Below are positions 5,111 to 59,573 of a stretch of 64,000 bases of DNA, one piece after another (position 1 is the first letter of the stretch; each line of letters starts with the position of its first letter). Below the pieces are notes generated by a model that was given only the letters and a program-made list of their open reading frames with translations, was not told the origin of the DNA and made no database searches. The DNA lies in NCBI RefSeq assembly GCF_019063845.1, contig NZ_CP077683.1, forward strand, positions 1,178,001 through 1,242,000, in the 5' to 3' direction. Origin of the DNA: Geomonas subterranea. GTDB taxonomy: Bacteria > Desulfobacterota > Desulfuromonadia > Geobacterales > Geobacteraceae. The position numbers and the translations under genes are program-made.

Positions 5111-5239
5111 TTATCTATGGCTCGTCCGCACTTCCTTATCTTTCGGAACGGTTTCCGTTCCGCAGGATTTGGCACCTTCCCCCCGTGGGGAGGTTGCCGC
5201 GACGTCATCGGGCCAGTCCCTCGATCGCTCTAGATAAGT
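5110..5239 (-). promoter_or_regulatory. SAM-I (S-box) riboswitch
   Basis: Reading the minus strand, ACTTATCTA (5239-5231) pairs perfectly with TAGATAAGT (5118-5110) as helix P1. Between them are the S-box core elements in order: AGAG then GAGGGACTGGCCC, a GATGA kink-turn segment, GGCAACC, and GGTGCCAAATCC. The aptamer is followed at once by an intrinsic terminator. This is a class I SAM aptamer that should end transcription when SAM is bound. It controls the two PLP enzyme genes at 5064-2786. Confidence 0.96.
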
Positions 5240-5284
5240 AATGCTATTCGGTTGTAAGAGGTGCTGCTTTAACCAGCGTCTTAA

Positions 5285-18560: not shown

Positions 18561-18636
<76 letters not shown>

Positions 18637-22032: not shown

Positions 22033-22117
22033 GCCGGAGTGGTGAAATTGGTAGACGCACTGGATTCAAAATCCAGCGCCGCAAGGCGTGCCGGTTCGAC
22101 CCCGGCCTCCGGTACCA
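22033..22117 (+). tRNA. tRNA-Leu (anticodon CAA)
   Basis: An 85-nt class II tRNA. Acceptor GCCGGAG/CTCCGGT with ACCA encoded, D arm with AAATTGGTAGACGC, anticodon stem CTGGA/TCCAG with loop TTCAAAA (anticodon CAA), a long variable arm (CGCCGCAAGGCG), and T arm CCGGTTCGACCCCGG. It reads UUG codons. It starts 23 bp after the GGDEF-EAL stop and ends before a terminator. Confidence 0.97.
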
Positions 22118-25409: not shown

Positions 25410-25577
25410 ATGTTTGAGACGCAGTACAACGAGGAGATGGAAGCAGAGGTAAGGCGGTTGGAGGCCAAGAAGAGGGCCGAGGAGGCGGGGCACCCGGAAT
25501 GGGACAACGCCTGCGCGTCTTGCCGATGCCGGCTGGCCGGTACCGACGACAAGTTCTGCACGGCCTGCCGCCGCTAA
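25410..25577 (+). CDS. 55-residue zinc-ribbon protein
   Basis: A small ORF with AAAAAAGGAG 10 bp before its ATG. The first 25 residues are a highly charged helix rich in Glu and Lys. The rest holds two Cys pairs, CASCRC and CTACRR, spaced like a rubredoxin-type zinc knuckle. It follows the MFS gene by 75 bp and directly precedes the 42/43-bp hairpin array. I do not know a named family for it. The ribosome binding site, the Cys pattern and the coding-like composition support a real gene; a metal- or nucleic acid-binding role is only inference. Confidence 0.72.
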   Translation: MFETQYNEEMEAEVRRLEAKKRAEEAGHPEWDNACASCRCRLAGTDDKFCTACRR

Positions 25578-25608: not shown

Positions 25609-26345
25609 GGCATGTCACTCAACCCTAGCGGGTATGCCCTAAGGGGCTAATGGCATACCATGTAACGCTAACCGGTATGCCGTTAAAGTCTAACGGCATA
25701 CCATGTAACCTAATCAGTATACCGTTTAGGTCTAACGGCATACCATGTAACCTAATCAGTATACCGTTTAGGTCTAACGGCATACCATGTAACCTAATCA
25801 GTATACCGTTTAGGTCTAACGGCATACCATGTAACCTAATCAGTATACCGTTTAGGTCTAACGGCATACCATGTAACCTAATCAATATGCCGTTTGGGTC
25901 TAACGGCATGCCATGTAACCTAACCGGTATGCCGTTTAGGTTTAACGGCATACCATGTAACGCTAACCGGTATGCCGTTTAGGTTTAACGGCATGCCATG
26001 TAACGCTAACCGGTATGCCGTTTGGGTTTAACGGCATGCCATGTAACCTAACCGGTATGCCGTTTAGGTTTAACGGCATACCATGTAACGCTAACCGGTA
26101 TGCCGTTTAGGTCTAACGGCATACCATGTAACGCTAACCGGTATGCCGTTTAGGTTTAACGGCATGCCATGTAACGCTAACCGGTATGCCGTTTAGGTTT
26201 AACGGCATACCATGTAACGCTAACCGGTATGCCGTTTAGGTCTAACGGCATACCATGTAACGCTAACCGGTATGCCGTTTAGGTCTAACGGCATACCATG
26301 TAACGCTAACCGGTATGCCGTTAAGGTCTGACGGCATGCCACTCA
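25609..26345. repeat. Tandem array of 18 hairpin units, 42/43-bp period
   Basis: Units begin with GGCATACC or GGCATGCC at 25609, 25652, 25695, 25737, 25779, 25821, 25863, 25905, 25947, 25990, 26033, 26075, 26118, 26161, 26204, 26247, 26290 and 26333. Each unit reads GGCATACC, ATGTAAC(G)CTAACC, GGTATGCCGTT, a 7-nt T(A/G)GGT(T/C)T, then AAC into the next unit. GGTATGCCGTT pairs with AACGGCATACC across the 7-nt loop (11 bp), and GGCATACC can also pair with GGTATGCC across 14 nt. Units at 25695-25821 are four identical 42-mers of a subtype (AATCAGTATACC). The first and last units are degenerate. The array lies between two convergent genes. There are no unique spacers, so it is not CRISPR. Confidence 0.96.
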
Positions 26346-26409
26346 GGCTTTGCGGCACTCCAAAGGGGTGTAGAAACAGGGGACATGGCAGTTGCTTGCC
26401 TGACGGTAA

Positions 26410-26443
26410 AACAAAAGGGTCTCTTGCGGGAGACCCTTTTGTT
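26410..26443. terminator. Bidirectional terminator between the hairpin array and superoxide dismutase
   Basis: A perfect 14-bp stem (AACAAAAGGGTCTC with GAGACCCTTTTGTT) around TTGCGG. T-rich on both strands, it can stop transcription from the dismutase gene and from the array side. Confidence 0.9.
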
Positions 26444-26472
26444 CCTTTGAGTGGCGGGGCAAGGTCCCGGAT

Positions 26473-27057
26473 TTACATCTGCATCCGCTCCTCGGCCTTG
26501 GTCCACTCGATGTTCTGGAAGAAGGAGTTGATGTAGTCGGCGCGCTTGAGGCCGTAGTCGGTCATGAAGGCGTGCTCGAAGACGTCCATCACCAGGATCG
26601 GGACGCAGCAGGCAGGATGACCGACGTCGTGCTCGTTTATCCAGCAGTTCATCAGCTTGCCGCTGTGCGCGTCCTGGTACAGGATGGCCCAGCCGATACC
26701 GCGCATGGCTCCCACGGACTTGAAGTCCTGGACCCACTCGTCGTAGCTACCGAAGTCCTGGTGCAGTCTTGCCGCCAGCCTGCCATCCTGGTTGATCGGC
26801 TGGTTGCCACCAAGGTTCTCGAAGTAGAGCTCATGCAGCTTCATGCCGTTGAACTCCCACCCGAAGCGCCTCTTCAACTCGGCAAAGACCGGTTCCGAGC
26901 CCTTGCCCTCTTTGCACATCTGCATGAGCTGCTCGTCGAGGGCGTTGCTGTTTTTCACGTACCCCTGGTACAGGGTGAAATGGTTGTTGAGAAGCGCCTC
27001 GCTGAATCCGGGCATCCCGATCAGTTGGGAGTATTCTTTTGCCGTGAACGCCGTCAT
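26473..27057 (-). CDS. Superoxide dismutase, Fe/Mn family
   Basis: A 194-residue cytoplasmic enzyme; the ATG at 27057 is preceded by AAAGGAGAGAG. The four metal ligands of the family are recognisable: a His in the first helix (LLNNHFTLYQGY), a His in KLHELYFENLGG, and Asp plus His in VMDVFEHAFMTDYG. The usual FYW and DVWEHAYY wording is altered (LYF, DVFEHAF), marking a divergent branch, so metal preference (Fe or Mn) cannot be called. It converts superoxide to hydrogen peroxide and oxygen. It is monocistronic, with its own promoter and terminator. Confidence 0.92.
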   Translation of the reverse strand: MTAFTAKEYSQLIGMPGFSEALLNNHFTLYQGYVKNSNALDEQLMQMCKEGKGSEPVFAELKRRFGWEFNGMKLHELYFENLGGNQPINQDGRLAARLHQDFGSYDEWVQDFKSVGAMRGIGWAILYQDAHSGKLMNCWINEHDVGHPACCVPILVMDVFEHAFMTDYGLKRADYINSFFQNIEWTKAEERMQM

Positions 27058-44724: not shown

Positions 44725-45469
44725 CCTGAACGGAATCGGCAAGAGGTTTGGCGGGCTGACCGCGCTGGAGCAGATCAGCTTCAACGTCGGCAAGGGGTCC
44801 ATCACCGGCATCATCGGGCCCAACGGCGCCGGCAAGACCACGCTCTTCAACGTGGCCACCGGGATCTATCCACCCTCGAGCGGGGCGGTCCTTCTCGAGG
44901 GTAGGGACATCTCCAAACTGCCGCCTGAAGGGCGTGCGCGGCTCGGGCTGGTGCGCACCTTTCAGAATATCGAGCTCTTCGGCAAGATGACCGTGCTGGA
45001 GAACGTCATGGTGGGCCTGCACACCCGGAGCAACTCCGGGCTTTTTGCCTGCTCCTTCAGGATGCCCTGGCAGATGAGCGAGGAGCGCCGTATCCGCGAA
45101 CGGGCCATGGAGCTTCTTGAATTTGTCGGGATACCGGATCTGGCGGGTGTCCAGGCCGGGACCCTTTCCTTCGGGAAGGGGAGACTCCTGGAGATCGCCC
45201 GGGCCATGGCCCTGGAGCCGAAGCTCCTCTTGATGGATGAGCCGGCGGCTGGGCTGAACAGCAGCGAGACCGCGGAGCTGGCGGAGTTGATCAAGAGGAT
45301 CCGTGACCTTGGTGTCACCGTGGCGCTGGTCGAGCACGACATGGACCTGGTCATGGACATCTGTGACCAGCTGGTGGTGCTCAACCTGGGGACCATGCTG
45401 GCCGAAGGGACGCCGAGGCAGATCCAGGACAACCCGGCCGTCATAACCGCGTACCTCGGCGAGGAATAG
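44717..45469 (+). CDS. livG: LivG-type ABC ATPase
   Basis: A 250-residue ATPase: Walker A GPNGAGKT, Q-loop RTFQNIELFGKMTV, signature LSFGKGRLLEIARAM (Gly-Lys in place of the common Gly-Gly), Walker B LLLMDEPAAGLN, H-loop VEHDMDLVMDICDQ. The RTFQNIELF and EPAAGLN wording is that of LivG. The 3' end of the gene, including the GEE codons and stop, is repeated twice downstream in a duplicated element. Confidence 0.93.
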   Translation: MLSLNGIGKRFGGLTALEQISFNVGKGSITGIIGPNGAGKTTLFNVATGIYPPSSGAVLLEGRDISKLPPEGRARLGLVRTFQNIELFGKMTVLENVMVGLHTRSNSGLFACSFRMPWQMSEERRIRERAMELLEFVGIPDLAGVQAGTLSFGKGRLLEIARAMALEPKLLLMDEPAAGLNSSETAELAELIKRIRDLGVTVALVEHDMDLVMDICDQLVVLNLGTMLAEGTPRQIQDNPAVITAYLGEE

Positions 45470-45913
45470 CTCCATCCCCTTTTCTCCGGTCCCTCTCCCT
45501 GTGGGAGAGGGTGCCCGAAGGGCGGGTGAGGGAGATGCCCCAGCGAGAGTGACGCCTGTTTGCGTCGCCCTCACCCCCAGCCCCTCTCCCAAAGGGCGAG
45601 GGGGGAATGACACGGCGAGGAGTAGTTCCATCCCCGGTCCCTCTCCCTCTGGGAGAGGGTGCCCGAAGGGCGGGTGAGGGAGATGCCCCGAGCGAGAGTG
45701 ACGCCTACTTGCGTCTCCCTCACCCCCAGCCCCTCTCCCAAAGGGCGAGGGGGGAATGACACGGCGAGGAGTAGCTCCATCCCTTTATTCCGGTCCCTCT
45801 CCCTCTGGGAGAGGGTGCCCGAAGGGCGGGTGAGGGAGATGCCCCGAGCGAGAGTGGTGCCAATTTGCGTCGCCCTCACCCCCAGCCCCTCTCCCAAAGG
45901 GCGAGGGGGGACA
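45458..45913. repeat. Three tandem copies of an element that includes the end of livG
   Basis: Copies begin at 45458, 45614 and 45763, each with CGGCGAGGA(A/G)TAG followed by (C/T)TCCATCCC. The body is CCCTCTCCC...GGGAGAGGG, a GGGCGGGTGAGGG turn, and ACCCCCAGCCCCTCTCCC with a GGGCGAGGGGGG end. Copy lengths are about 156, 149 and 151 bp. The first nine to twelve bases of each copy equal the terminal codons and stop of livG. The array sits inside the liv operon, between livG and livF. Confidence 0.92.
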
Positions 45914-59315: not shown

Positions 59316-59540
59316 CTCACCCGGCCTTCGGCCACCCTCTCCCAGGGGGCGAGGGCAGGGGCCACCATCCGGCCTTCGGCCACCCTCTCCCAGGGGGCGG
59401 GGGCAGGGGCCACCATCCGGTTTTCGGCCACCCTCTCCCAGAGGGCGAGGGCAGGGGCCACCATCCGGCCTTCGGCCACCCTCTCCCAGGGGGCGAAGGC
59501 AGGGGCCACCATCCGGTTTTCGGCCACCCTCTCCAGAGGG
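59316..59540. repeat. 48-bp tandem repeat, five copies
   Basis: Units of about 48 bp with GCC(T/-)TCGGCCACCCTCTCCC and a C(A/G)GGGGGCGAGGGCAGGGGCCACCATCCGG tail. Two subtypes alternate (GGCCTTCGGCC and GGTTTTCGGCC). An open frame runs through because 48 is a multiple of 3. It occupies the 551-bp gene-free stretch between the metal operon and the ABC permease. Confidence 0.92.
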
Positions 59541-59573
59541 GGGAGGGTGTGGTCAGCGATGTACACACGTCCA

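Follow-up and report, generated by a model that had tools for sequence, protein, structure and literature searches.

Tandem, helically phased sites beside the gene of the protein that binds them are a feature of plasmid iterons and centromere arrays, such as the RepA iterons and parC/ParR. A spacing of 21 bp corresponds to about two turns of B-DNA. REP/BIME sequences and their RAYT proteins, together called "REPtrons", are intergenic and palindromic, alternate in orientation and often lie between convergent genes (PMC3733652). In CRISPR and TIGR-Tas systems, a protein gene is accompanied by an adjoining tandem array (PMC12385481). In Geobacter metallireducens, multicopy intergenic sequences have been described as dispersed repeated DNA of unknown function (PMC2700814). 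Minisatellites (VNTRs) are tandem, homogenized and variable in copy number.

The window analyzed here is a stretch of 64,000 nucleotides of the Geomonas subterranea genome. It contains a tandem array that belongs, as an orphan, to a class of noncoding arrays having a base period of ~21 bp. Members of the class occur in three or more phyla and mostly adjoin a gene of a single protein family, the members of which are termed gene A and gene B below.

The resemblance to REP/RAYT systems lies in the intergenic, palindromic repeats and in the gene that may accompany them (PMC3733652). However, the window unit carries no GTAG/CGTC tag, and its neighbors are a zinc-ribbon gene and sod rather than a tyrosine transposase; REP elements occur in many dispersed copies, whereas the gene A/B arrays occupy few loci per genome, keep a strict ~21-bp period and accompany a different protein family. 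Tandem sites, helical phasing and the adjoining gene of a presumed binding protein recall iterons and centromeres, but gene A has no partition or Rep domain in Pfam, neither gene B nor the window array matched plasmids, and the gene A/B arrays are chromosomal, with several paralogues per genome. The preliminary description of this DNA had stated that the array is not a CRISPR, and, judged on spacers, this holds: the units are contiguous and homogenized, and no unique spacers separate them. TIGR-Tas (PMC12385481) likewise differs in its variable spacers, in the Nop domain (for which gene A/B had no match in Pfam) and in the ~21-bp period of the present arrays. The G. metallireducens sequences come from the same bacterial family and are intergenic, but no gene-linked 21-bp tandem array is described in the available portion of that source (PMC2700814). 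Unlike minisatellites, the gene A/B arrays are tied to one gene family across phyla and have a period of about two helical turns. Searches of the open-access literature turned up no account of gene-linked 21-bp arrays; the class is apparently undescribed.

Structure of the window array

TRF placed the array at 25647-26341 (period 43, 16.3 copies, 95% matches, score 1110). Exact GGCAT[AG]CC starts number 17, run from 25652 to 26333 and follow one another in steps of 42 or 43 bp; the 18 units originally reported are reached only by including, as a near variant, a degenerate additional start at 25609 (GGCATGTC). The 11-bp arms described for the unit were confirmed (GGTATGCCGTT/AACGGCATACC, 7-nt loop), as was the alternative 8-bp pairing with the neighboring unit, for which the loop is 13 or 14 nt. 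ATGTAA is indeed present in the 16 complete internal units; it is not kept in relatives (G013 has ACTTAA).

The better-conserved repeat element is the half-unit of ~21.4 bp, marked by GG-N4-CC sites at that spacing. The two sites of a unit are in opposite orientation, and in the units at 25695-25904 the second has decayed to AGTATACC/AATATGCC. The chain of sites spans 25631-26361. The array is noncoding, a 43-bp step breaking the reading frame, and its 42/43-bp period is 2 x 21.4 bp. Four-site GGN4CC patterns occurred six times in the window vs. none in 100 shuffles. Five-site patterns with such spacing were not found in most related genomes, and shuffling yielded no such chains. The array is far beyond chance.

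Two other tandem repeats in the window, at 45457-45911 (156 bp x 3) and 59321-59547 (48 bp x 4.7), are rich in CTCTCCC/GGGAGAGGG and unrelated to the 21-bp class. The only Rfam matches in the window were a SAM riboswitch and two tRNAs (Table 1).

Table 1. Positions of features in the window.
Feature	Position	Strand	Basis or detail
SAM riboswitch	5133-5240	-	Rfam
tRNA	18564-18636	-	Rfam
tRNA	22033-22114	+	Rfam
Zinc-ribbon gene	25410-25577	+	55 aa, CxxC...CxxC
Degenerate first unit	25609-25651	none	GGCATGTC...GGTATGCC
16 complete 42/43-bp units	25652-26332	none	two GG-N4-CC sites each, 21-22 bp apart
Partial last unit and decaying edge	26333-26370	none	GGCATGCCACTCAGG...
Bidirectional terminator-like stem, between array and sod	26410-26444	none	AACAAAAGGGTCTC...GAGACCCTTTTGTTC
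Fe/Mn superoxide dismutase gene (sod), convergent neighbor	26473-27057	-	PF02777, E 1.2e-25

Flanking genes

The zinc-ribbon ORF and sod converge on the array, as had been claimed; no transposase was seen among these immediate neighbors. The 55-aa zinc-ribbon protein had no match in Pfam or NCBIfam. In G017, which has no array at this site, the stem equivalent to that before sod comes shortly after the zinc-ribbon stop codon; thus, the array fills the interval from the stop codon to the terminator and, given this position, may also be transcribed. The zinc-ribbon gene had been proposed as the candidate partner of the array. This proposal is not supported: 34 of 58 genomes have the gene, some of them from genera that have no such arrays, and similar arrays lie behind another gene family. 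Because it is so widespread without arrays, the zinc ribbon is probably not the partner.

Arrays in other Geomonas species

Close relatives were inspected for the absence that the preliminary description had named as an objection, and they hold arrays at the same site. Arrays were located in the zinc-ribbon intergenic region of G002, G003, G010 and G013, and remnants in G005 and G012. Unit sequences vary among species and are homogenized within most arrays; copy number varies widely, and certain species have no array.

A second array of the window type lies in the same genome at 1,792,809-1,793,253, ~590 kb from the window array and behind gene A1, a 122-aa gene at contig position 1,792,232. 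Other species have similar arrays at the equivalent locus, where the sequence diverges and the spacing is the same. In three species (G013, G002 and G005), species-specific units are common to the zinc-ribbon and second loci. When 21 arrays were compared, the array closest to that at the zinc-ribbon locus was the same-genome gene A1 array in four of seven species and was not in the other three; the nearest to the window array was the gene A1 array of its own genome. Arrays of other sequence types in the window genome were located through gene A/B.

A helicase was considered as the partner of the second array and rejected: in G005, G006 and G014 it lies kilobases from the array, which is still found with gene A. 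The second locus thus points to gene A as the candidate partner.

The gene A/B family

Gene A encodes a small, unannotated protein (~122 aa) whose C-terminal tail is basic (RKK..APA), and it belongs to a paralogous family with several members per Geomonas genome. Gene B comprises more distant relatives in which the gene A domain is joined to an fn3-like C-terminal domain; the helical domains of the two are homologous (hhalign probability 99.2, E 3.7e-19). By sequence, gene A matched nothing significantly in Pfam, NCBIfam or PDB; its single marginal match was to a PHROG of unknown function. Searches against Pfam, NCBIfam, PHROGs and PADLOC were otherwise negative, apart from a weak match of gene B to fn3. 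No DNA-binding domain was recognized in the domain searches, and no nuclease, transposase or recombinase domain was detected in the family. Phages gave no match to gene B, and viral contigs gave no match. A model of the gene A family built from a single sequence was all-helical and of low confidence (pLDDT 54.7), and a fold search with it returned nothing significant; the DGR protein Avd came up at no better than E > 5 and is given no weight.

Association of arrays with the family

Arrays with a period of ~21 bp or a multiple were counted within 1.5 kb downstream of gene A. In a first set of loci, an array lay downstream in 28 of 30 and upstream in one; the second set gave 15 and one, respectively, of 19. 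Both sets together thus have downstream arrays at 43/49 loci and upstream arrays at 2/49, compared to 5/73 control loci with an array (2/32 and 3/41). The corresponding Fisher p for gene A (~1e-18) overstates the evidence because the counts include partly orthologous loci, which are not independent; the independent evidence is the recurrence in different phyla, paralogues and array sequences.

Among gene B loci of Geobacterales, 18 of 21 were flanked by an array on one or both sides. In Verrucomicrobia and Bacteroidetes an array lay upstream at 19 of the 22 loci that had upstream sequence, in genomes that were met through the array scan. When the class of one Verrucomicrobia/Bacteroidetes genome was sampled, with arrays not a selection criterion, the array was upstream at 18 of 22 gene B loci and downstream at two. 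The sequences of the arrays differ, and the base period fitted to 49 strong arrays was 21.06 +/- 0.36 bp. The link of ~21-bp arrays to the gene A/B family is strongly supported.

Neither the window nor the fetched flanks of relatives' zinc-ribbon loci contained a gene A/B member. The window array therefore has none within 1.5 kb, for which reason it is termed an orphan; it was placed in the gene A/B-associated class by its sequence similarity to A1 arrays. Another array, G001:C12, has a unit nearly the same as that of the gene B-linked array G001:C11 and no gene A/B within the fetched 6 kb. Gene-less arrays such as this suggest that arrays act, or spread, in trans.

Further arrays were noted during the survey. 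A Chitinophagales MAG (JAAFIK; L083-L132) has more than 20 arrays of a 43-bp unit (TATAGGNNNNCCTAT...AAAAGTTTA) on many contigs. The inner four bases vary between units, and the flanks and linkers are nearly constant. Gene A/B was not beside the four of these arrays that were checked; gene B was matched three times in this genome, and two of these matches have other ~21-bp-phased arrays. A Planctomycetaceae MAG (L094; 3571-4015 and 5239-5535) carries a 21-bp x 21 array; ~1.2 kb from it lies an ORF that by eye resembles an IS200-like Y1 transposase. This genome had no gene B match. Arrays of ~21 bp were also seen at contig ends (G002:C17, G002:C21, G010:C53, G024:C15, G024:C23, G024:C25, G024:C34 and G024:C72), so draft assemblies break at these arrays, and the number of arrays has probably been underestimated.

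Constraint, symmetry and RNA folding

In two arrays with diverged units (G006 and G014), the GG and CC positions are 82-94% conserved and the 21-bp steps persist, while most other positions vary. Differences between these two arrays fell on GG/CC at 6/108 positions vs. 47/464 elsewhere (p = 0.20), which is no more than suggestive of purifying selection on GG..CC. A fixed GG..CC grammar was rejected as a general feature of the class, as it holds only for A1-type arrays; the common feature is the period.

RNA folding of the window array is strong on both strands (z of about -7 and -10 relative to mononucleotide shuffles), and several related arrays fold weakly or not at all. Pairing of neighboring arms, strong in the window array, is poor in G002, G005, G012 and the A1 array of the same genome. 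Across 40 arrays, dyad symmetry did not hold as a general property (combined p 0.65). The hairpin or dyad was accordingly dropped as a general feature, and the structured RNA that had been offered as one possibility is weakened: certain arrays do fold strongly, but others do not.

A terminator-like stem separates gene A from its array at 18 of 19 loci, which probably leaves the array outside the gene A transcript. At several gene A loci (e.g., L188, L215 and L186), the stem between stop codon and array has a recurrent CCCTCG or CCCCCGAG arm. The results on constraint, dyads, folding and terminators favor a role at the level of DNA, with helical phasing.

Discussion

A putative multi-copy protein-binding array, neither a CRISPR nor an insertion sequence, is still the best class of explanation for the window array. 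Within it, we give a probability of roughly 0.55 to the reading that this orphan array is a helically phased stretch of DNA serving as platform for a gene A-type protein. Each gene A/B protein would recognize its own array sequence as double-stranded DNA, and the two-turn spacing would set the sites on one face of the helix. Bound subunits aligned in this way could touch and build a nucleoprotein structure. The array between the zinc-ribbon gene and sod would then be a second platform for the A1 protein. Candidate cellular roles are regulation, protein titration, and chromosome organization or insulation.

Much of the variation described above would also be expected if slippage and gene conversion had simply amplified and homogenized intergenic repeats whose location and period have no function. 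Homogenization within species, widely varying copy number, the lack of an array in certain species and the freedom of array sequences to diverge all suit such a neutral minisatellite. We consider it unlikely, as three things are hard to account for in this way: the link to one gene family in several phyla, a period that stays close to 21 bp and the spacing retained in arrays whose units have diverged. The orphan state of the window array bears on a different proposal, in which the gene A/B product drives its own repeat to amplify or spread, binding exists to propagate the array, and the window copy landed in trans. Rapid turnover, the repeat common to the zinc-ribbon and A1 loci in certain species, and the near match of the gene-less G001:C12 unit to G001:C11 are in keeping with a selfish array of this kind; nevertheless, the failure to detect nuclease, transposase or recombinase domains, the few loci of the window-array sequence type per genome and the long retention of orthologous positions make it distinctly unlikely.

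Two further proposals concern the array at its own locus. Tandem hairpins at the 3' end of the zinc-ribbon mRNA, or in a separate transcript, might stabilize or terminate RNA, and the window array does fold strongly on both strands and precedes a terminator. A structured RNA is still improbable given the poor folding and arm pairing of related arrays (the A1 array of the same genome among them), the lack of general dyad symmetry, the position of the gene A-locus arrays past a terminator-like stem and the lack of an Rfam match to the window array. That the array binds the adjacent zinc-ribbon protein is very improbable: the two adjoin in about seven Geomonas species, but most genomes with the gene have no adjoining array, and similar arrays lie behind gene A where the zinc ribbon is absent.

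Beyond the window, the platform reading extends to a two-part system in Geobacterales, Bacteroidetes and Verrucomicrobia, to which we assign an even chance: helical proteins, optionally fused to fn3, would each have their own arrays, co-diverge with them and have orphan arrays in trans. An uncharacterized multi-phylum protein family would thereby gain its first functional lead, namely arrays dedicated to it whose period has a physical meaning. If true, this would account for intergenic tandem repeats, at times found at the ends of draft contigs, that could easily be passed over as minisatellites. Should the proteins bind the arrays, the system would amount to a nucleoprotein assembly that is programmed by DNA and helically phased. 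Its many natural sequence variants would make it useful for the study of protein-DNA co-evolution and as a set of possibly orthogonal binding arrays.
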